Positions 7,420-18,784 of a DNA stretch of 57,207 bases are shown here, in pieces. This DNA comes from an uncultured Methanobrevibacter sp. (lineage in GTDB: Archaea; Methanobacteriota; Methanobacteria; Methanobacteriales; Methanobacteriaceae). A program made the position numbers and the translations under genes. Positions within the stretch are counted from its first letter, which is position 1. The number at the start of each line of letters is the position of its first letter. The stretch spans positions 1-57,207 of the forward strand of contig NZ_CADAJR010000020.1 of the NCBI RefSeq assembly GCF_902788255.1, read 5' to 3'. The notes below the pieces were generated by a model, which made no database searches, was not told the DNA's origin, and saw only the letters and a program-made list of their open reading frames with translations.

Positions 7420-10400
7420 GTGTGTATGAAAATAAATAAATTAATTGTTTTAAGTTTGATTTTGCTGATATTATTCACATTATCAGCAGTATCTGCAGAA
7501 AAAAACATAACGAACTTTACAAGTAATGGGGATTTATTAACCTCAGATTCACCAAATGCTAATTTCAATGATTTAAATAAAGACATAAATAAAAGTACAA
7601 ATGAATTAAAACTTACTCGTGACTATGTCTACGATGAAGGCAATGACATCAATTTCACAGATGGAATTAATGTCTCCAAAAGCAACTTCCTTTTGGACGG
7701 TAACGGATATAGTATTGACGGGAACGGAAAAGCGAGAATATTTAATATAATTGGCAACAATGTCACTCTAAAAAATTTGATAATCAAAAATGCATTAAAT
7801 GGTGCTGTGTCTTTCGTTCAGCCAAATGCAGAGTATTATCTGGACAATGTCACCATTCAAAACTCATCCTCCAAATATTCTTATGGTGGAATTGAATTAA
7901 ATGCTACTAATTTGGTTGTAAACAATTCAAAATTTATTTCAAATACTGGTACTGACAGTTCAGACATTTTTTTCAACGAAAAGTGTAATGTGATTGTTGT
8001 AAATTCCACTTTTGAAGGTGGAATTGAGTCAAAATGGTCACATATTTATTTTTCTGGCGGAGCATTGATTGTTGACGGTTCCACTTTTGCAAATTCACGT
8101 TCAAGCTATGCCAATGCAATTTATGGTGAAGATGGTAGGGTGACTGTACGTAACACTAAATTCAGAAATCTTACTGTTTTGAATAGTGCTGGTGCAATTG
8201 GCGTTAAATATGCGGTTAATTTAACTGTTGAGGATTGTGAATTTACAAATATCACTTCAGGTAAGGATGGTGGGGTGATTTTTGCTGATATTGATCAGGG
8301 TTATGTGACAATCGCCAACTCAAAATTCCATGGTTGTTTTGCGGCATTTGGAGGTGCCGTAATGCAGCTTAGAGCTGAGTTAAATATCATTAACTCAACT
8401 TTCGAAGATAATATTGCAATGTATGATGGTGGAGTATTATGGACATCATATGCTAACGTATCCATTGAAAATTCCACATTCAAGAGAAATAATGTTGTTA
8501 AAGAAGATTTGGAAATTGGGGGAGTATTGTACTTTGATAAAGGAAACATATTAATCAAGGGTTCAACTTTCATTGACAATCACGGATCAAACAAAGGGGA
8601 TGCGGTATTCACCTATGATTCCAAACTCACATTACAAAACAACACCTTCAAGGACAACGGAAATGCCTTATACTCAGTATTCTCAACACAAGACATTGCC
8701 GAAGACAATAAATTCAATAATGATTTGGTTTCTGTTAACAACACATTTTATGCAACAATTGTGGTAAACGACGGAATAGAATTAACACTGATTAATAACA
8801 CTCCTTATAAATTTGACACATTGCCGGATAAATTCAATTTAAAGGATTATGGATTAGTGGGTCCTGTCAGAGACCAGGGTTATATGGGTGCCTGCTGGAC
8901 ATTTGCAACATCCGGTGCTTTAGAATCAGCATTGCTTAAAGCAACCGGAAAATTATATAATTTTTCACAGGACAATATTCAAAATACAATGCTTCAATAT
9001 TCAATTTATGGAGTTGATGGAATTTTAGAAGGTGCACAACAATCCACAGGTGTCGGATATCTTGTAAACTGGTACGGTCCATATCCAACCGATCTGGATA
9101 GATATGATGAGCTTGGAAAAGTATCCACTCATATCAACATGGCAAATGAAAGCATACATGTTCAGGACGTAGTGTTCTTCCCGGCTCGTCAAAATGCAAC
9201 AGACAATTATATCTTTAAAAAAGCATTAATGGACTACGGAGCATTTCTAGTGGCAATTTATTCAGGTGAGAGTTCAAAATATTATAACGAAACATCTGCT
9301 GCACGTTATTACAATGGGACTAAAGGTATAAATCATGCGGTAACTCTTGTTGGTTGGGATGATAATTATCTTGCAAGTAATTTCCTAAATCCTCCTTCTG
9401 GTGATGGTGCATGGATTATTAAAAACAGCTGGGGTACAGACTGGGGAGATGAAGGCTATTTCTACCTGTCATATTATGATACCTCATTCAATACTCAAAA
9501 CCCTTGGCAGTATCCATACTATGCGGCTTACTTATTTAACAACACTGTTCCATACAATAAGAATTATCAAGCAGATGCAGGACAGTTAAATAACTTTGTA
9601 GGTCAATACAAGTACTTCTCAAATACCTACACTGCTCTTGAAGATGATTTAATTGCAGCCGTGGGTACTTACTTTGATAGTGAGGGAGTTGATTATGAAT
9701 TTGATATTTATGTTAATGGAGTGTTAAAACACACACAAAATGGTGTAAGCCCATTTGCAGGTTATCATACCATCAAATTAACACAATACATTCCAATTTC
9801 AGCAAATGATACTTTTAAAGTTGTATTCAAAAATAGTTCTCTACCTTTCGAATCTAATTCAAGACATCATCATAAGGAAAACGTTTCATTTGGAAGTGTG
9901 GATGGTGTCAATTGGGAGGATTGCTAAAAATAATGTAACAGCAATATTGAAAGTCTACACTGTCGCTAAACCTGTAGTTCCACCAACACCAGTAGTTCCA
10001 TCAAAACCGGTTATCACAGGCAATAAGGATGTTGTCATGCTTTACTCCGCTGGCACCGCTTATAAGGTTAGTGTAACTATCGACGGCAGGGCGGTAGTCG
10101 GTGAATACGTAACCTTCAAATTCAACGGTGTCACCAAAAAGGTTAAAACCGACAGCAAAGGTTATGCAACTTATAAAATACCTACTGTTAAACCAAAATC
10201 AAGTAAATATGCAATCACTGCAACATATAAAGATGTAACTGTTAAAAACAAGGTTAAAGTGAACAGCATTGTTGTTGCTAAAAACCTTAAGGCTAAAAAA
10301 TCTGCAAAAGTCCTTAAAATCAAAGTGACCTTGAAAAAGGTTAACAAGAAATACATTAAAGGTAAATACGTAACCTTGAAATTCAAAGGCAAAACCTATA

Positions 10401-10543
10401 AGGTAAAAACCAGCAAGAAAGGTGTTGCAATTTTCAAAATCAAAAAGAATGTGCTTAAAAAACTTAAAGTTGGTAAAAAATACTCCTATAAGGTTTCTTA
10501 TGGTAAAGATGCTGTAAGCAAAAAAATAACCGTTAAAAAATAG
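7420..10543 (+). pseudogene. Adhesin-like secreted protein: beta-helix, papain-type peptidase and Ig-like/Lys-rich tail, frameshifted
   Basis: The frame starts at GTG 7420, with ATG at 7426 more likely. It opens with a signal peptide (KINKLIVLSLILLILF, ending SAVSA). Asn-rich right-handed beta-helix repeats follow at about residues 80-460. Next is a C1A papain-like peptidase with the full triad: Cys492 in GACWTFA, His639 in INHAVTLVGW and Asn669 in KNSWGTDW. Frame 1 stops at 9927, but homology continues in the +1 frame (IAKNNVTAILKVYT) through a Pro linker, an Ig-like domain and a lysine-rich tail ending at 10543. A single +1 change near GGAGG (about 9917-9923) explains it. The intact form would be about 1040 residues. 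It could be a pseudogene, a sequencing error, or a secreted enzyme that lost its wall-binding tail. Confidence 0.85.
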
Positions 10544-11637: not shown

Positions 11638-12000
11638 CTGCCAAATATTAGATTATATCTCAAGTATTTCGATTCACAAAAGACAGACAAGAAAACAATA
11701 ACAGATGCTAAAGCCAGTAAAGGTTCCAACTGTGTGGACTGGGGACAAGTATATTACAGAATAGCTAAATCATTAGGTTATGACGTGCAGTTTGTCCATG
11801 TCAAATGCAGAGTTTCAGGAACGGGCCACATCAGATTAAGATTAAGACATAAGAAACATACTGGAGGAAAATGGATTAACCGTGATCCTGCTGCAGTAGC
11901 AGATATAACTTCAGGAAATGTAAAATCAATCTGGTGTGAAGATGGAAATGTAATAGCTATTGATCCATCCTGGATATTTACAGATTTGTACAGTAGTTAA
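11638..12000 (+). pseudogene. C-terminal remnant of a transglutaminase-like wall protein
   Basis: A frame open from 11638 with no usable start reads KASKGSNCVDWGQVYYRIAK, then VKCRVSGTGHIRLRL and WINRDPAAVADI, ending DPSWIFTDLYSS. These match the Cys, His and Asp positions of transglutaminase-like domains found at the end of large Methanobrevibacter adhesin-like proteins. The N-terminal signal and repeat regions are missing, so this is a 5'-deleted relic of a long surface protein. All three catalytic positions survive, suggesting fairly recent truncation. Confidence 0.75.
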
Positions 12001-12025
12001 CGTTAATGTTAACTATTATTCTTTT
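11995..12025 (+). terminator. Hairpin with T-run after the transglutaminase remnant
   Basis: AGTTAAC (11995-12001) and GTTAACT (12008-12014) form a perfect 7-bp stem with loop GTTAAT and a downstream T-run. The TAA stop lies inside the stem. Confidence 0.6.
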
Positions 12026-12317
12026 TTTAACATTAATATCAACTGTTAACTATTCATAAATTGCTTTCCGAAACTCTTGTATATCACATTTTAAAATCAT
12101 ATTTGATTCTCAATAGGGCATTCGTTAATGTTAATGTTATTTCATTAAATTAAAAGAAAAAAAGTAACTATTAATTTAATAGACTGTAACCTTCATTATT
12201 CTATAGGCAACAATAACTATTAAAAATTAATAATTTTGCTTATGAGAAAATTGATAATTTTATATAATTGAAATAATAAAATATTATATTAATTATTATA
12301 TACAGGTTGTAATAGCT
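12026..12317. other. Intergenic region rich in TTAAC/GTTAA words
   Basis: AT-rich sequence between the transglutaminase relic and a small gene. Several GTTAAC/GTTAAT words recur (near 12050 and 12130) without a regular array. A TATA-like stretch precedes the gene at 12318. Confidence 0.35.
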
Positions 12318-12509
12318 ATGGCCAATGTTAATAATACCTCATCCTACATGGATGAAGACAAAAAGCAAATTATTAAAGAGTCCAATTATACCTATAGAGA
12401 TGCTCTTGAAGTTTCAGCATATCTTATCGAAACAGGTAAGTTCGAAAGATTCTACAAGGAAATGCAAATCCACGACCTTCAAAAAGAACTTGACGAAATG
12501 GATGAATAA
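12318..12509 (+). CDS. Small helical protein, possible RHH/antitoxin-like family
   Basis: A 63-residue acidic protein (MANVNNTSSYMDEDKKQII...). The core reads KESNYTYRDALEVSAYLIETG followed by a charged helix, KFERFYKEMQIHDLQKELDEMDE. The layout resembles small ribbon-helix-helix or antitoxin proteins that match an 'ARVD-x-x-T-x-x-I-V-E' start. A degenerate relative lies at 12650-12780, suggesting a small multi-copy family. No toxin-like partner is visible next to it. Function unknown; it could also be a remnant of a larger family. Confidence 0.55.
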   Translation: MANVNNTSSYMDEDKKQIIKESNYTYRDALEVSAYLIETGKFERFYKEMQIHDLQKELDEMDE

Positions 12510-12649
12510 AACTTCAAAACAAAAATCTCAGGTAATAACTCTAAAAAGAAACTATTTTTAATTGCAAAGGTAATAATAAAAATTATTATTACTTTTATAT
12601 TTTTTAAATAATATAATTTTATATATAATACATAATAAATTAATATATT

Positions 12650-12780
12650 ATGATACCTGAAAAAACCAACATCAGCGCAAGAGTGGATTTAATACTCAAA
12701 AAATAGTAGAAGAATTAACCTTCAACCATAAGGATTCTTAGGAGCTGGAGCAAAAACTGATAGATAATTTCGATTTTTAG
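12650..12780 (+). pseudogene. Degenerate relative of the small helical protein at 12318
   Basis: It starts ATG with MIPEKTNISARVD, then needs a frameshift to continue NTQKIVEELTFNHKDS, a stop, and ELEQKLIDNFDF. The N-S-A-R-V-D start and the IVEE...KDS...LID spacing parallel KESNYTYRDALE...LIETG of the upstream gene. At least one frameshift and one internal stop show it is dead. Confidence 0.5.
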
Positions 12781-13117
12781 TAGATAATTTATATACTGAT
12801 ATGCAACAGCAAATATGTAGTTAATTAAAAGGAATCAAAAGTTACATAATCATGACTCACCATTTCTAATAGGTGATGCTGTAAAGGAAATTTCAGAGCC
12901 AAGTTATATTGATGCTCAAATTAGCTTAGGCCTTGGATAATTTAAAGTTAATCAGAATGCATTGAAAATCAATCTTACAGAATTGCGGTATTCTCGCAGT
13001 ATTATGATAAAAATCCAATCCAAAAATTTAATCGATGGGAAAGCAAATATAAACTCATGCTCATGTTTAAAAGTTAGCATGTAAAAATATTTTTTAAAAT
13101 TAGGAGGATTAATAAAT
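12781..13117. other. Intergenic region before the first DHA2 exporter
   Basis: A short plus-strand stretch around 12870-12935 reads IGDAVKEISEPSYIDAQISL and may be another relic, but it is too short to assign. The exporter gene has a strong AGGAGG site at about 13103. Confidence 0.35.
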
Positions 13118-14635
13118 ATGAATGAAAAGGCTAACGAGAGTTCTTGGTTTCCGTTAATAGTTGTGGCTTGTGCTTCCTTTATTATAGTGTTGGACTCTTT
13201 CTTCATGAATGTTAGCATTTCTCGAATTGTTGTTGATTTGAATGCTGATGTTAGTACTATTCAAATGATTGTGTCGTTTTGTACTCTTATCACTGCTGCG
13301 TTGATACTGTTCAGTACCAAACTTCAGGACATAGTTGGTAAAAAGAAACTGTTTGTAATTGGTGCTGCACTTTTTGGTATAGGAATATTTGCTGCAGTAT
13401 TAAGTTCAAGTGTTACAATGTTTTTTGTCGGATGGGCAGCGATTAAAGGTGTTGCTGCGGCATTAATGCTGCCTGCCATAGTTTCAATAATAAGCGGAAT
13501 ATATTCCGGCAGAAAGCGTACAATTGCTTTGGCAACTCTCGGTGTAATGGCAGGACTTGCAGATATTTTAGCTCCACTCCTTGGTGGGCTTATTACAACT
13601 TATCTCAGCTGGAGATACACTTTTGCATTTGAATTAATATTCATTTTATTTATTTTAGTAATGCAAAATAAAATACCTGATTTTAAACCTACTGAATCTA
13701 AAAGCGATCTTGATATTATTGGTGCTATACTTTCCGGTATATGTCTTCTTTTGCTTGTGCTTGGTATTTTGACTCTGACTAAGGATGTTGCTACCAGCAT
13801 AATTGAGATAATTTTGGGATTGATAGTCTTGGCAATCTTTATATGGTTTGAACTCAAAAGAAAAAGGTCAGGCAAGGTGCCATTGCTTGATGTTGAATTA
13901 TTTAGAGACAAAAATTTGCGTATAGGTACATCTATTAAGTTATTATATAATATTGTAATATCAGGAACATTTTTTGTAATGGTTCTGTTTTTCCAAAGTG
14001 TATTGCAGTTAAATCCATTCGATACGGGGTTGGCTTCACTTCCGTTTGTTATGGCTTTGTTTATTTTTTCATTGACCGCTCCAAAACTAATGGGAAAACT
14101 GAATCACAAGACACTCATGGCAGTAGGATGTATAATATCTATTGTAGGATGTCTGATTTTAAGTTATCAATTTAAATTAAATGTAAATATGCTGGATTTA
14201 ATTCCGGGGCAGTTTTTACTTGGGGCAGGTATTGGTTTTATGATGGCTTTAGCTGCGGATGTTGCATTATTTGATGTTCCTGCTGAAGGCCAAAATAATG
14301 CATCTGGTATTATTACAACTGGTGAGACATTAGGTTCCTCATTGGGTACAGCAATCATTGGAATAATTCTAATTCTTGGAGTTATGGGTGGTATTAGTAC
14401 TGCAGTCGATACCTATGCGCCTGATTATTCAGGAGATGAACAATTCCATCAGGAGGTCTATGACTACTTCCAAAAATTAGATACTATAGAGGGACAAGAC
14501 AGTATTGTTGTGGATACTGCGGATATAATTATTCAGAATGCAATGGCCTCCGTAATGTATGGATTAGCCATCGTGTTAGCAACTATGTTAATTATAACGC
14601 TGAGGATAAAAAATAAAAATATTAAAAAACAATGA
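13118..14635 (+). CDS. DHA2-family MFS multidrug exporter (paralogue 1)
   Basis: A 505-residue major facilitator with about 14 hydrophobic helices, the DHA2 (EmrB/QacA) topology. TM1 reads VLDSFFMNVSIS; the loop 2-3 motif is KLQDIVGKKKLFVIGA, and an antiporter-like LAPLLGGLITTYLSWRYTF follows. It would expel drugs or toxic organics using the proton or sodium gradient. It is one of three close paralogues in the window (with 26971 and 29053), all opening with N-E/K-x-x-x-x-SW-PL and ending over an AATGAG/CTCATT terminator. This copy is the most diverged (IKGVAAALM versus IEGVAGALM). AGGAGG supports the start. Confidence 0.93.
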   Translation: MNEKANESSWFPLIVVACASFIIVLDSFFMNVSISRIVVDLNADVSTIQMIVSFCTLITAALILFSTKLQDIVGKKKLFVIGAALFGIGIFAAVLSSSVTMFFVGWAAIKGVAAALMLPAIVSIISGIYSGRKRTIALATLGVMAGLADILAPLLGGLITTYLSWRYTFAFELIFILFILVMQNKIPDFKPTESKSDLDIIGAILSGICLLLLVLGILTLTKDVATSIIEIILGLIVLAIFIWFELKRKRSGKVPLLDVELFRDKNLRIGTSIKLLYNIVISGTFFVMVLFFQSVLQLNPFDTGLASLPFVMALFIFSLTAPKLMGKLNHKTLMAVGCIISIVGCLILSYQFKLNVNMLDLIPGQFLLGAGIGFMMALAADVALFDVPAEGQNNASGIITTGETLGSSLGTAIIGIILILGVMGGISTAVDTYAPDYSGDEQFHQEVYDYFQKLDTIEGQDSIVVDTADIIIQNAMASVMYGLAIVLATMLIITLRIKNKNIKKQ

Positions 14636-14672
14636 GAGGCAATCTCTCATTTGCCTTTTTTTTTAAAATTGT
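14631..14672 (+). terminator. Terminator of DHA2 exporter 1
   Basis: AATGAGAG (14631-14638) pairs with CTCTCATT (14644-14651), followed by a T-run. The TGA stop codon lies inside the stem. The same stem recurs after the other two DHA2 paralogues. Confidence 0.85.
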
Positions 14673-14770
14673 TTGGGTGTTGGCAGAAATTATTGAATTT
14701 TGATTTTATTTTTTTTCATTTTTCACAGATTGTGTAATAATATATATTATTTAAAAACTAAATTACTAAT

Positions 14771-16759
14771 ATGAAAAAATTTTTGAGTTTTTCACTAAAA
14801 CACCAATGGAAAACAGTGCTGATTATTTTCGCGCTAATAGCCGTTCAGACATTCTTTCAAATGGAAATTATTGACCTGTTTGGTGCTGCTTTGACTGGAG
14901 TTAAACAGCAGAATGTTGATTTGCTTTTCAAATCCGGATTGAATATGGTAGGGTATACAATCCTTTCAATGATTGCCCTTTATGCGGTTTCTTTACTCTC
15001 AACAAGAGTGGCTTCAAATGCAGCATATAAAATTCGTGAGAAAATATTTCATATTCTGATGAACCTGCCTGATGAGGAAATTGCTCAATTTAAAATTTCA
15101 GGGCTAACTACTAGGTCAACTAGAGGTATGTCTTCAGAACAGGGATTTTTAGTGATAATACTCGAACAATTAATTCTGATTCCCGTTACATTCATAGCAG
15201 TCGTATATGAAATAGCATTGATTGATACGTCTTATGCGATATTTTTCTTGGTATTGATTGCTATTATTTCCATGATTATAATTTTGAGAATGAAAAAAAT
15301 TGTAGAAATATTTTTCAGAGCTAAAAAGACATACGGAATGCTAAACCAGTTATTCCTATCTAAAATCAGTGATATAGCTGATAAAATCCCATATAACAAA
15401 CAGGAGTATGAGGCTGAATTTGAAAAGGCATGTGAGAATTCATATGATAAAAACGTTAAGTATATTTCTAGTCAATATTACCTGGGGCCGCTGTTAATGT
15501 GGGGTTTATATTTCATTGTTTTGATTACCTTGGCAATGGTTAATTCCGGATACACAATCGGCTTTGAAACAGACAGCGTATTTGACTCATTCATTATTTT
15601 AATGTATATTGCCTACTTCATTGGTACCTTGGGTCCTATTCCAGCATTGATTGACAGGTGGCCACGTGCATATGCCACTTCAGTGCGTTTAGAGGAAGTC
15701 CTGACTATTGAAGATAAAATCATAGACTCCAAAAATACAAATGATATTCCAAAAGAAATAGAAATTGTTGAGGAGGATATTGCCTGGGAGGATAAGGGCA
15801 TATGGGCTGAAAGAAACGAAATCTTGGACAAATTCACTGACATATTAAAAGACGACCGGACCAAAATAACAATATCAATGATTTTGCTTACGGTATCTAC
15901 CTTGTGTATGGTTTATGCCCCTAAAGTTGCAGGAAAGACTGCTGATTTATTGCTTTCTAATTCAAATACATTCAACGACCCTACTGTCTACACTAATCTT
16001 GCCATATTGATTTTATTATATTCAGGAGGATATCTCTTAACAATACCTACAAAGAAAATCATGGGAACTATTGGCGAAAAGGTGGCATATAATTTAAGAA
16101 TGAAATTATTTGATAAGATCGATGCTATTGGTTCACAATACATTAAAGAAAATTCAAAGGGTCTCATCTTTTCTAGATTAAACAACGACGTGATGAACAT
16201 CCGTGAGTTTGTCTCTTCCCGCTTTTCTGATATTTATGCGCAAATCCTATCAATAATCCTTGTAATTGTATTGATGTTGATGACAGACTTTAGATTGAGC
16301 CTGGTATATATTGCGATATTGCCGATTTATGCCATTGCATTCTATTTATGTGACTATAAATCTAGAAATTACTACGACGGTCATCAAAAGCATTTAGGAA
16401 GATTGATGGGCAATTTTGAAAGGGGTCTCTCAAATCGTGATTCATTCCATGAAAAAGGATTTGAAAAACTCAATCAGACTGTAATTGACTATTATACTAA
16501 ATCCAAAAATGTCACTAATGTCATGGTGCCTGTTACAACCTTTTTAACAAATATAAGTACCATAACTGTTTATATGGCAGGGATTTACTTCTTATCAGTT
16601 AATGAGATTCAGCTGGGAACTCTATTGGCAGTTATCATGTATGGACAATTACTGAATAAGCCTATTAAAAAACTAAGTACCTCTATGGCCTCCATTGAAA
16701 CTTCATTTTCAAGCATCAAAAGGATATTTGCGATTATTGACTATCAAAAGGATGAATAA
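14771..16759 (+). CDS. Tandem ABC-exporter membrane domains lacking nucleotide-binding domains
   Basis: A 662-residue protein built from two successive type IV ABC-exporter membrane domains. Domain 1 (about residues 1-315) ends RLEEVLTIEDKI, and domain 2 (about 365-655) ends SIETSFSSIKRIFAIID. These ends are exactly where an ATPase domain normally begins. No Walker A, LSGGQ or Walker B motif exists anywhere, and the gene stops cleanly after domain 2. The linker keeps only a short stub (IEIVEEDIAWEDKG) resembling the first strand of an ATPase domain. It could use an ATPase from another locus, act as a non-transporting membrane protein, or be a fused, deleted relic of two half-transporters. The frame is intact over 2 kb, which argues against simple decay. 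Confidence 0.85.
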   Translation: MKKFLSFSLKHQWKTVLIIFALIAVQTFFQMEIIDLFGAALTGVKQQNVDLLFKSGLNMVGYTILSMIALYAVSLLSTRVASNAAYKIREKIFHILMNLPDEEIAQFKISGLTTRSTRGMSSEQGFLVIILEQLILIPVTFIAVVYEIALIDTSYAIFFLVLIAIISMIIILRMKKIVEIFFRAKKTYGMLNQLFLSKISDIADKIPYNKQEYEAEFEKACENSYDKNVKYISSQYYLGPLLMWGLYFIVLITLAMVNSGYTIGFETDSVFDSFIILMYIAYFIGTLGPIPALIDRWPRAYATSVRLEEVLTIEDKIIDSKNTNDIPKEIEIVEEDIAWEDKGIWAERNEILDKFTDILKDDRTKITISMILLTVSTLCMVYAPKVAGKTADLLLSNSNTFNDPTVYTNLAILILLYSGGYLLTIPTKKIMGTIGEKVAYNLRMKLFDKIDAIGSQYIKENSKGLIFSRLNNDVMNIREFVSSRFSDIYAQILSIILVIVLMLMTDFRLSLVYIAILPIYAIAFYLCDYKSRNYYDGHQKHLGRLMGNFERGLSNRDSFHEKGFEKLNQTVIDYYTKSKNVTNVMVPVTTFLTNISTITVYMAGIYFLSVNEIQLGTLLAVIMYGQLLNKPIKKLSTSMASIETSFSSIKRIFAIIDYQKDE

Positions 16760-16808
16760 TTGCATATCTGCCAAGTCATTTCATTCAAATAGGTTATAGA
16801 ATTCTTTC

Positions 16809-17193
16809 ATGATATATAATCGTATTGCAGTTCCCACTATTTTGGTATGGAATGCCTTCCATCATGAACAAATGGATGGAAGACACATTCGAGCACGGAT
16901 GGTCACACGGATCAACCGGTGATAAACTCCAAGGAAAAAAATTAATCGCTTCATTTACCGCAGGTGCACCTGAAGAAGCCTATCAAAAGGATGGAATAAT
17001 GGGTTATGAGATTGAAGAATATCTCCCACCAATCAAATCAATGTGTGGACTTTGCGGGATGGAATTTGCGGATTACGTATTTACAGGTGGTGTTTCATTC
17101 GAATTAAGGACCAATCCTGATGAGATTGACAAAATTAAAGAAAAAGCAAAAAGTCATGCAACAAAACTGGTTTCAATAATTGAAAAAATATAA
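16809..17193 (+). pseudogene. 5'-truncated NAD(P)H oxidoreductase (flavodoxin-fold, KefF/KefG-like) remnant
   Basis: From 16825 the frame reads LQFPLFWYGMPSIMNKWMEDTFEHGWSHGS, typical of the second half of NQO1/KefF-type flavoproteins. A tail about 100 residues long follows (ASFTAGAPEEAY, KSMCGLCGMEF). The preceding YNRI is one base out of frame, and the FMN-binding N-terminus is absent. The full family length is about 180-200 residues, against 122 here, so this is a pseudogene. Confidence 0.75.
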
Positions 17194-17395: not shown

Positions 17396-18784
17396 ATGGA
17401 ATTTGAAAATAAAAACGGATTAGTAACATTAATTATACTCATAATGGCTTCTGCAGTCACATTGATATCGCAAAGCATTGTAACAACAAGTCTACCATAT
17501 TATATGGCGGATTTCTCAGTATCTTCTGCAACTGTACAATGGACATACTCCGTGTTTCTGCTGGTGCTTGGAGTGATGATTCCACCAACTGCATATATCA
17601 CAAAAAGATTCAAGATTAAAACGATACTGACAACATCACTTGTGTTATTCATAATCGGGTCAGTACTTTGTTTTTTATCAAAAAGCTTTGAAATGTTGAT
17701 TGTTGGAAGAATCCTGGAAGCTATGGGAACAGGTATTCTAATGCCGATAGGTCAGATATTGATTTTCAGAATCATGCCTGAAGAAAAATGGGCATTTTTC
17801 ATGGGATTGATGGGATTTCTTGTAGGAATAGTGCCTGCAATGGGTCCGACAATGGGAGGAATCATAATTGATTTGTATAATTGGAGAGTTATTTTTGAAT
17901 TTTTAGCTATAATAACATTTGTAATCTTAATTTTAGCAGTCCTGTTTGTCAAATTTGAACTTGAAACCCAAGATTATCCATTGGATTTTACATCTTTGAT
18001 ATTGTCAATACTGTTCTGTGCAGGTTTGATGATAGGCTTTTCAAATATTGCCGAATTCGCATTCAGCTTAACTCATGTAATTTTGCCGATTGTTATTGGT
18101 GTTATCACATTGGGGATATTTGTCAAACGTCAAAACAAAATTGAAAAGCCGCTGATTAACTTGAATGTTCTTAAAAATAAGTATTTTGTCTCTGGGACTG
18201 TTTTTGCAGCATTACTTTACTTTGTAATGTGTGGAATCAATGTGATGGTACCTCTGTTTGTTCAAAGTGTAGCATATTACTCCCCAACAGAATCAGGACT
18301 CATTTTGTTTCCGTCAGCATTAATCATGATAGTGTTCAATTTCTTAAGTCCGGTAATGGCAGATAAGATTGGAATAAAACCTGTTTTGATAGCTTCATCA
18401 GTTTTAAATATAATCGGATTTGCCGCTATGATGACATATAATATGAACTCAACATTTGAATATCTTTTAATCACTCAGTTAATCAGGGGAATTGGCTGCG
18501 GACTCGGATTATCTCCGGCAATCACATGGGCAATGAGTGTTGTGGCAGGTGATGTTGAGGATGCAACTGCAATCAACAATACTGCAAGACAGGTTATAGG
18601 TGCAATCGGTTCATCAGTTACGGTTGTTATAATGCAAATCTTGGCAAACGGAAACATTACCCATAATCAGATTTCCGTTAATTCATTTAGCATGACTTCT
18701 TTGATGATGATAATAATAACAGTGATTCTATTGACAATAACTATACTGTTTATTAAGAATAAGAAGGATATTGTGGATGTATAA
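17396..18784 (+). CDS. MFS multidrug exporter, DHA2/LmrB-like
   Basis: A 462-residue MFS transporter with about 14 hydrophobic segments (IVTTSLPYYMADFSVSSATVQW, then TAYITKRFKIKTIL, then PAMGPTMGGIIIDLYNWRVIF). The antiporter motif is preserved. It belongs to a different subgroup from the three DHA2 paralogues of this window: it lacks their terminator, and TM1 has SLPYYMADF instead of MNVSIS. It sits among gene relics in the accessory region. Substrate unknown. Confidence 0.9.
   Translation: MEFENKNGLVTLIILIMASAVTLISQSIVTTSLPYYMADFSVSSATVQWTYSVFLLVLGVMIPPTAYITKRFKIKTILTTSLVLFIIGSVLCFLSKSFEMLIVGRILEAMGTGILMPIGQILIFRIMPEEKWAFFMGLMGFLVGIVPAMGPTMGGIIIDLYNWRVIFEFLAIITFVILILAVLFVKFELETQDYPLDFTSLILSILFCAGLMIGFSNIAEFAFSLTHVILPIVIGVITLGIFVKRQNKIEKPLINLNVLKNKYFVSGTVFAALLYFVMCGINVMVPLFVQSVAYYSPTESGLILFPSALIMIVFNFLSPVMADKIGIKPVLIASSVLNIIGFAAMMTYNMNSTFEYLLITQLIRGIGCGLGLSPAITWAMSVVAGDVEDATAINNTARQVIGAIGSSVTVVIMQILANGNITHNQISVNSFSMTSLMMIIITVILLTITILFIKNKKDIVDV

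Follow-up and report, generated by a model that had tools for sequence, protein, structure and literature searches.

Our results suggest that the gene at 14771..16759 (+ strand) of the window, by which we mean the whole stretch of 57,207 nucleotides analysed from an uncultured Methanobrevibacter sp., encodes a single-chain pseudo-dimer that derives from a heterodimeric ABC exporter and works alone, without ATP. We propose this tentatively, as a reading that comes close to being probable. Function without ATP is our best guess, while the order in which the protein lost its parts, the purifying selection and the movement of the gene by itself are what the sequences support.

Two fused exporter membrane domains without ATPase domains

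The gene is an open frame of 662 residues with an ATG start, which is also found in 28-30 full-length homologues. Pfam recognised ABC_membrane in two stretches of the protein (E 3.2e-34). In a sequence search against solved structures, residues 9-328 matched TM287 (its residues 18-337) and residues 366-661 matched TM288 (its residues 39-339), which are different subunits of a single heterodimeric exporter. From this, the window protein consists of the membrane domains of such a heterodimer, fused in one chain. Membrane domain 1 (residues 1-312; 14771..15706, + strand) has the six-helix type IV fold and is the counterpart of the N-type subunit of such exporters, as supported by the TM287 match, its own tree and the AF2 helices. 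Note that it is the more divergent half of the protein, and that its sub-segment borders, like the helix borders of the whole protein, are approximate. Membrane domain 2 (residues 353-662; 15827..16756, + strand) corresponds to the C-type subunit, by the TM288 match and its tree, and ends where an NBD would be expected to start. The NBD-start boundaries at which the two halves stop read 'RLEEVLTIEDK' and 'KRIFAIID'. The first NBD is replaced by a linker of 40 residues (313-352; 15707..15826, + strand), which is mostly coil of low confidence in the AF2 model and evolves fast.

No Pfam match to ABC_tran was obtained in the 662-residue protein, even at E 10, and a PF00005 search of the whole genome revealed no ABC ATPase match or remnant on or beside the gene. 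The only PF00005 matches on the window contig belong to UvrA (~47.7-50.2 kb). The original prediction, an intact frame with two type IV membrane domains that each end at the NBD start and with no Walker A, signature or Walker B motif, was thus correct. By descent and by membrane fold (two six-helix domains, according to Pfam, the TM287/288 matches and the fold matches) the window protein is an ABC exporter; it fails the defining test of two NBDs with Walker A, signature and Walker B, which are present neither in the protein nor nearby, and so it should not be classed as an ABC transporter in the functional sense. In support of the fold assignment, an AF2 model of moderate confidence (mean pLDDT 69.7, pTM 0.68) resembled the membrane domains of P-glycoprotein and other ABCB proteins, with SUR1 (ABCC8) also among the matches.

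Retention and loss of the gene

A match at E <= 1e-60 was present in 35 of the 67 Methanobrevibacter genomes, about half of the genus, and most of these matches are NBD-less homologues of 655-665 aa with 57-95% identity; for a more distant NBD-less group the identity is 45%. A profile search across the phylum also recovered full-length copies from G125 and G136, which belong to a second genus, and none outside the family. Most of the relatives come from metagenome-assembled genomes, some of them contaminated. Since the architecture is common to 30 full-length homologues, assembly error is excluded, and these intact frames together with the low dN/dS rule out decay of the window gene.

Measured by NG86, dN/dS was 0.14-0.15 against the two closest relatives and 0.23 when pooled; over 352 pairs of the 30 full-length frames, the pairwise values ranged from ~0.1 to 0.4 with a median of 0.22. 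Judging by these ratios, the membrane part is under purifying selection. Together with the NBD-less architecture kept in about half of the genus, dN/dS values of ~0.14-0.23 and a recent spread between species, this bears out the earlier claim that the protein is retained and not decaying. The dN/dS of the NBD-less gene is several-fold higher than that of the active exporters, although the latter are dS-saturated, which makes comparisons of constraint between the classes rough. Broken copies were found in seven genomes (G006, G008, G022, G024, G044, G048 and G113; in G044 just a short stretch is out of frame, which might reflect an assembly error). Since some lineages carry such broken copies, the gene looks functional but dispensable, an accessory gene that is sometimes lost.

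Both the broken copies and the constraint weaker than on active exporters would fit a relic or near-neutral hitch-hiker, kept by a mobile cassette and without a cellular function. However, this reading is strained by dN/dS values well below 1 in all these frames, the loops and the gene ends are conserved, and the mobile unit carries no mobility function of its own; we regard it as highly improbable.

Catalysis appears to have been lost before the ATPase domains

The motifs of the full-length exporters of the same family were scored on one alignment. Two groups proved ordinary, with Walker A, signature and H-loop present and one degenerate site as in TM287/288. In a third group the frames are intact and the catalytic motifs of the NBDs are destroyed. 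The C-type subunits of these dead-NBD pairs lack the catalytic Glu, the signature and the H-loop, and most of them also Walker A, with DEATS changed to DYNNN, NYPNS or DNVMS; the N-type subunits keep Walker A and have lost the signature and the H-loop. The pairs are located at L061 10039-13288, L062 4976-8180, L072 2130-5428, L073 2804-9668, L075 4149-7353 and in L111-L115. They make up a group of heterodimeric ABC exporters that has itself radiated, with frames still intact and NBDs that are catalytically dead by motif, on which purifying selection continues.

Each membrane domain was given its own tree, and the two trees were congruent. In both, the NBD-less proteins form one clade (support 99/95 for the first domain and 93/76 for the second), which together with its sister, the dead-NBD pair of G031, nests inside the dead-NBD clade (100/99 and 99/94), and the active exporters lie outside as the sister of the latter. 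Note that the tree program flags long branches and that the exact place of the G031 pair is less sure than the nesting itself. In this pair, the N-type subunit (L063 4964-6585) is frameshifted just before Walker A, either in reality or by assembly error.

Alignment of NBD-less, dead-NBD and active proteins showed that the region of coupling helix 1 (ICL1) is well kept in both halves. Coupling helix 2 is rewritten in half 1 and 8 residues shorter in half 2, where the deletion site falls at ~residues 556-561 (16436..16453, + strand) and the missing residues align with 'IVKSYNME' of the active exporters. One NBD-less clade (L064/L065) retains these 8 residues. Because the NBD-less clade is nested in the dead-NBD clade, catalysis would have been lost before the NBDs were deleted and the halves fused. 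The simplest order suggested by the sequences is that catalysis was lost, then both NBDs were deleted and the two halves fused, and then the main clade lost the 8 residues. Close homologues with full ATPase domains, combined with a recent deletion or a high dN/dS, would have pointed to a relic as the original prediction had conceived it; the nearest full-length relatives are only ~27-40% identical to the window protein and, by their motifs, their ATPases are dead.

Within the dead-NBD pairs, the NBDs evolve with a dN/dS of ~0.12-0.34, often slower than the membrane domain. These complexes therefore seem to do something without ATP hydrolysis, and the constraint fits an ATP-independent function that is older than the domain loss.

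An ATPase or a partner exporter in trans

The original prediction had also raised the possibility that the protein pairs with an ATPase encoded elsewhere. A separate ABC ATPase that docks in trans would leave the protein an ATP-driven exporter, and both the good conservation of coupling helix 1 in the two halves and the split TMD and NBD genes reported in the YddA group (PMC13316013) are in line with this. We inspected 12 loci around the ABC-ATPase genes of the genome and found no orphan exporter-type NBD: the ATPases had their own permease beside them, were soluble double-ABC proteins or were of the importer type, the sole exception being an importer-type, peptide/nickel-type D/F pair without an adjacent permease. 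Against this reading, the sister lineages already have dead NBD motifs, erosion or deletion has affected coupling helix 2, and no gene travels with the NBD-less gene. Since neither a co-travelling ATPase or binding protein nor an orphan exporter-type ATPase was found, and since the coupling helices are eroded, a trans-acting ATPase is improbable, and the suggested pairing was not borne out.

Another possibility is that the protein modulates an exporter of the same cell, either dominating it by assembling with one of its subunits or titrating a partner of an active or dead-NBD exporter. Some genomes do hold both types of gene, adjacent to each other in G013 and G022. However, most holders of the NBD-less gene have no dead-NBD pair, the window genome among them, which has just one distant active pair (24-25% identical), and the fused double domain completes the fold without a partner. 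We would scarcely expect such a role, even less than the retention of a functionless relic.

The gene moves between species by itself

The dS of the NBD-less gene was lower than that of uvrA in 230 of 231 genome pairs (medians 0.55 and 1.55). The copies of G104, G106 and G125 are just 0.002 apart in dS, while for uvrA this value is 1.4 or saturated; since G125 belongs to a different GTDB genus, the transfer between genera was recent. A 6.2-kb block is common to G125, G106 and G036 at 99.6-99.98% identity, and its borders, as well as several internal positions, consist of ~130-170 bp repeats that correspond to the 3' end of a DUF1848 gene; this gene also occurs in intact form. A profile search for this repeat found 32 in 350 kb of loci with the NBD-less gene against 0 in 365 kb of control loci, the related loci being non-independent. 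In the window, a decayed copy of the DUF1848 3' end is present at 12788..12918 (+ strand; nhmmer E 3.5e-18; 58% by tblastn to the C-terminal 50 residues of an intact DUF1848 protein); elsewhere this repeat borders mobile cassettes that carry the NBD-less gene.

By blastn against seven other contexts, homology starts at 14687-14740, ~35-85 bp 5' of the ATG (in one context a contig end truncates the start), and stops at 16761-16784, just 3' of the stop codon; it comprises the gene, its promoter and almost nothing else. The promoter-like stretch is A+T-rich (14687..14770, + strand; from the upstream sequences of 16 loci and the blastn borders) and contains TATATATTATTT ~25-30 bp 5' of the ATG. 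Since homology stops at the gene edges, no partner gene travels along, and a conserved operon partner was rejected. On this evidence, the NBD-less gene is moving between species as a single gene. Carriage of the gene by viruses was considered too and found no support; no relative was present among IMG/VR contigs, and one exact pattern detected no border repeat there.

Tandem cassettes with the DUF1848 repeat were observed, besides the window copy, in L110 (4619-14663), L069 (4313-10690), L060 (3898-11870), L039 (851-8641), L053 (33-3607) and L090 (938-4201). Their cargo comprises MFS exporters, SMR efflux genes, flavodoxins, fumarate-reductase-like subunits and candidate phage-defence families. 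With their DUF1848 direct repeats as borders, these cassettes of Methanobrevibacter resemble a system of site-specific islands or cassettes, for which no recombinase was identified. Neither NBD-less exporters in Methanobrevibacter nor DUF1848 islands were the subject of any paper found in the open-licence literature. In G125, a small island is duplicated in tandem (L110 1706-4500 and 11573-14367), with, by eye, an SMR-type efflux gene, an HxlR-like regulator, a CooC-like ATPase, a TauE-like exporter and a ferredoxin; the window's own genome has a single related copy (L090 1130-3688). In G106, the 6.2-kb block is flanked on one side by the gene of a phage-type terminase large subunit and on the other by that of an MCM helicase (L120 2471-13580), and may have been inserted into or beside a provirus. 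Window positions 11661-12766 are 83-86% identical to the region adjoining this provirus (L156, L120), which suggests an integration region in common.

As for the immediate context, an MFS exporter lies upstream of the gene (13118..14635, + strand; Pfam MFS_1), which in L068 forms a repeat-plus-gene cassette (a 92% block, 12783-14666). Downstream there is a truncated flavodoxin-fold reductase gene (16825..17193, + strand), which matches Pfam Flavodoxin_2 at profile positions 83-197 of 198 only and, lacking the first ~80 residues, is probably a remnant; a full-length relative is present at L054 9163-9723. A second MFS exporter follows (17396..18784, + strand; Pfam MFS_1), which is also near the NBD-less gene in several other loci. 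Further upstream, window positions 7420-10543 encode an adhesin-like protein with a papain-like cysteine-protease region (by eye) in two overlapping frames (7420-9927 and 9806-10543), the split being possibly a frameshift.

Constraint along the protein and its possible function

The strongest constraint was found in the cytoplasmic loops and in the segment after TM6 of half 1, and the weakest in TM2-TM4 of half 1 and extracellular loop 1 of half 2. The cytoplasmic loops are better conserved than most helices, and the gene ends are conserved too. These loops may serve to keep the halves joined and as a gate on the cytoplasmic side; alternatively, they may bind something. Few charged residues of the membrane core are invariant and specific to the clade (D35, E123 and K175, near helix ends); the acidic ones, D35 and E123, are in half 1, and none lies clearly within the helices of half 2, the cavity model being unreliable.

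Even with no NBD to dock on them, the cytoplasmic loops and the post-TM6 segment are under the strongest constraint, which favours a non-transport role, in which a receptor, sensor or immunity protein would use the exporter fold to bind a ligand (a bacteriocin-like peptide or a drug) or a partner protein. The presence of the gene in mobile islands with efflux genes and candidate phage-defence families, the purifying selection on the dead NBDs of the sister pairs, often above that on their membrane domains, and the analogy with SUR1 in KATP channels agree with such a role. Nevertheless, receptor and effector domains are absent from the protein, none of its neighbours is conserved, the gene alone forms the mobile unit, and no PADLOC family was matched (0 families), so it belongs to no anti-phage defence system modelled there. 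We consider a non-transport role, which the original prediction had also raised, unlikely, if worth keeping in mind as the strongest competitor of our own reading.

Our preferred reading is that of an ATP-independent transporter. A heterodimeric ABC exporter would have lost the catalytic motifs of its NBDs, both NBDs would then have been deleted and the membrane halves fused into a single chain, and the fused domains would act, by analogy, as a transporter that in principle resembles SbmA. We favour it for the cavity-forming architecture, wholly kept in both halves, and for the SbmA precedent; this protein lost its NBDs with transport retained, and its descent from a full ABC transporter has been proposed (PMC13316013). 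Against a transporter, no SbmA-type glutamate ladder was recognised, invariant charged residues in the core are few, and the conserved cytoplasmic loops, which a pure secondary transporter does not need, could mean a cytoplasmic partner.

More broadly, a primary ABC pump may have been converted a separate time, in archaea, into an ATP-independent membrane transporter. The stages on the way (active exporter, dead-ATPase pair, NBD-less fusion and coupling-helix loss) would all survive within a single family, and the final product would be spreading between species as a one-gene cassette. We think this broader claim possible but somewhat doubtful. To our knowledge, there is essentially one known case of a primary ATP-driven pump becoming ATP-independent, SbmA, and its intermediates have never been found. 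The coexistence of the stages in one archaeal family makes the order of events readable, and each stage can be expressed and assayed. Moreover, the gene is accessory in rumen and gut methanogens, has moved recently and lies close to drug-efflux genes, so that what it does may be relevant to methanogen resistance to inhibitors or peptides.

Comparison with known systems

As occurs with the window protein, SbmA/BacA (SLiPT) proteins have the type IV exporter membrane fold without NBDs. However, SLiPTs are homodimers with extra TM0 helices (TM0a/TM0b), a glutamate ladder and no coupling helices, whereas the window protein is a fused heterodimer, a single chain of unlike halves with only a short elbow before TM1, and keeps the loops and coupling helix 1. 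In addition, its Pfam search, carried to E 10, did not detect SbmA_BacA. Without a family match, a homodimer or TM0 helices, it is not a SLiPT; it has an independent origin and works, at most, like one. SUR1, found among the fold matches, has the ABC exporter fold too and serves a non-transport role with it, but it keeps its NBDs and is a channel subunit, whereas the window protein is NBD-less; we claim no sequence closeness between the two.

TM287/288, BmrCD and MsRv1273c/72c are heterodimeric type IV ABC exporters in which one of the sites is degenerate. Exporters of the TM287/288 type have two different six-helix membrane domains, each matched by one half of the window protein, and active members in the same archaeal family show the standard motif pattern; in contrast, the window protein lacks both NBDs, has its halves fused and is 8 residues short at coupling helix 2 of half 2. 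The dead-NBD pairs of the Methanobacteriaceae (L061, L062, L063, L072, L073, L075 and L111-L115) are sister lineages of the NBD-less clade in both trees and keep as intact frames (one subunit being frameshifted in L063) the NBDs that the window protein no longer has.
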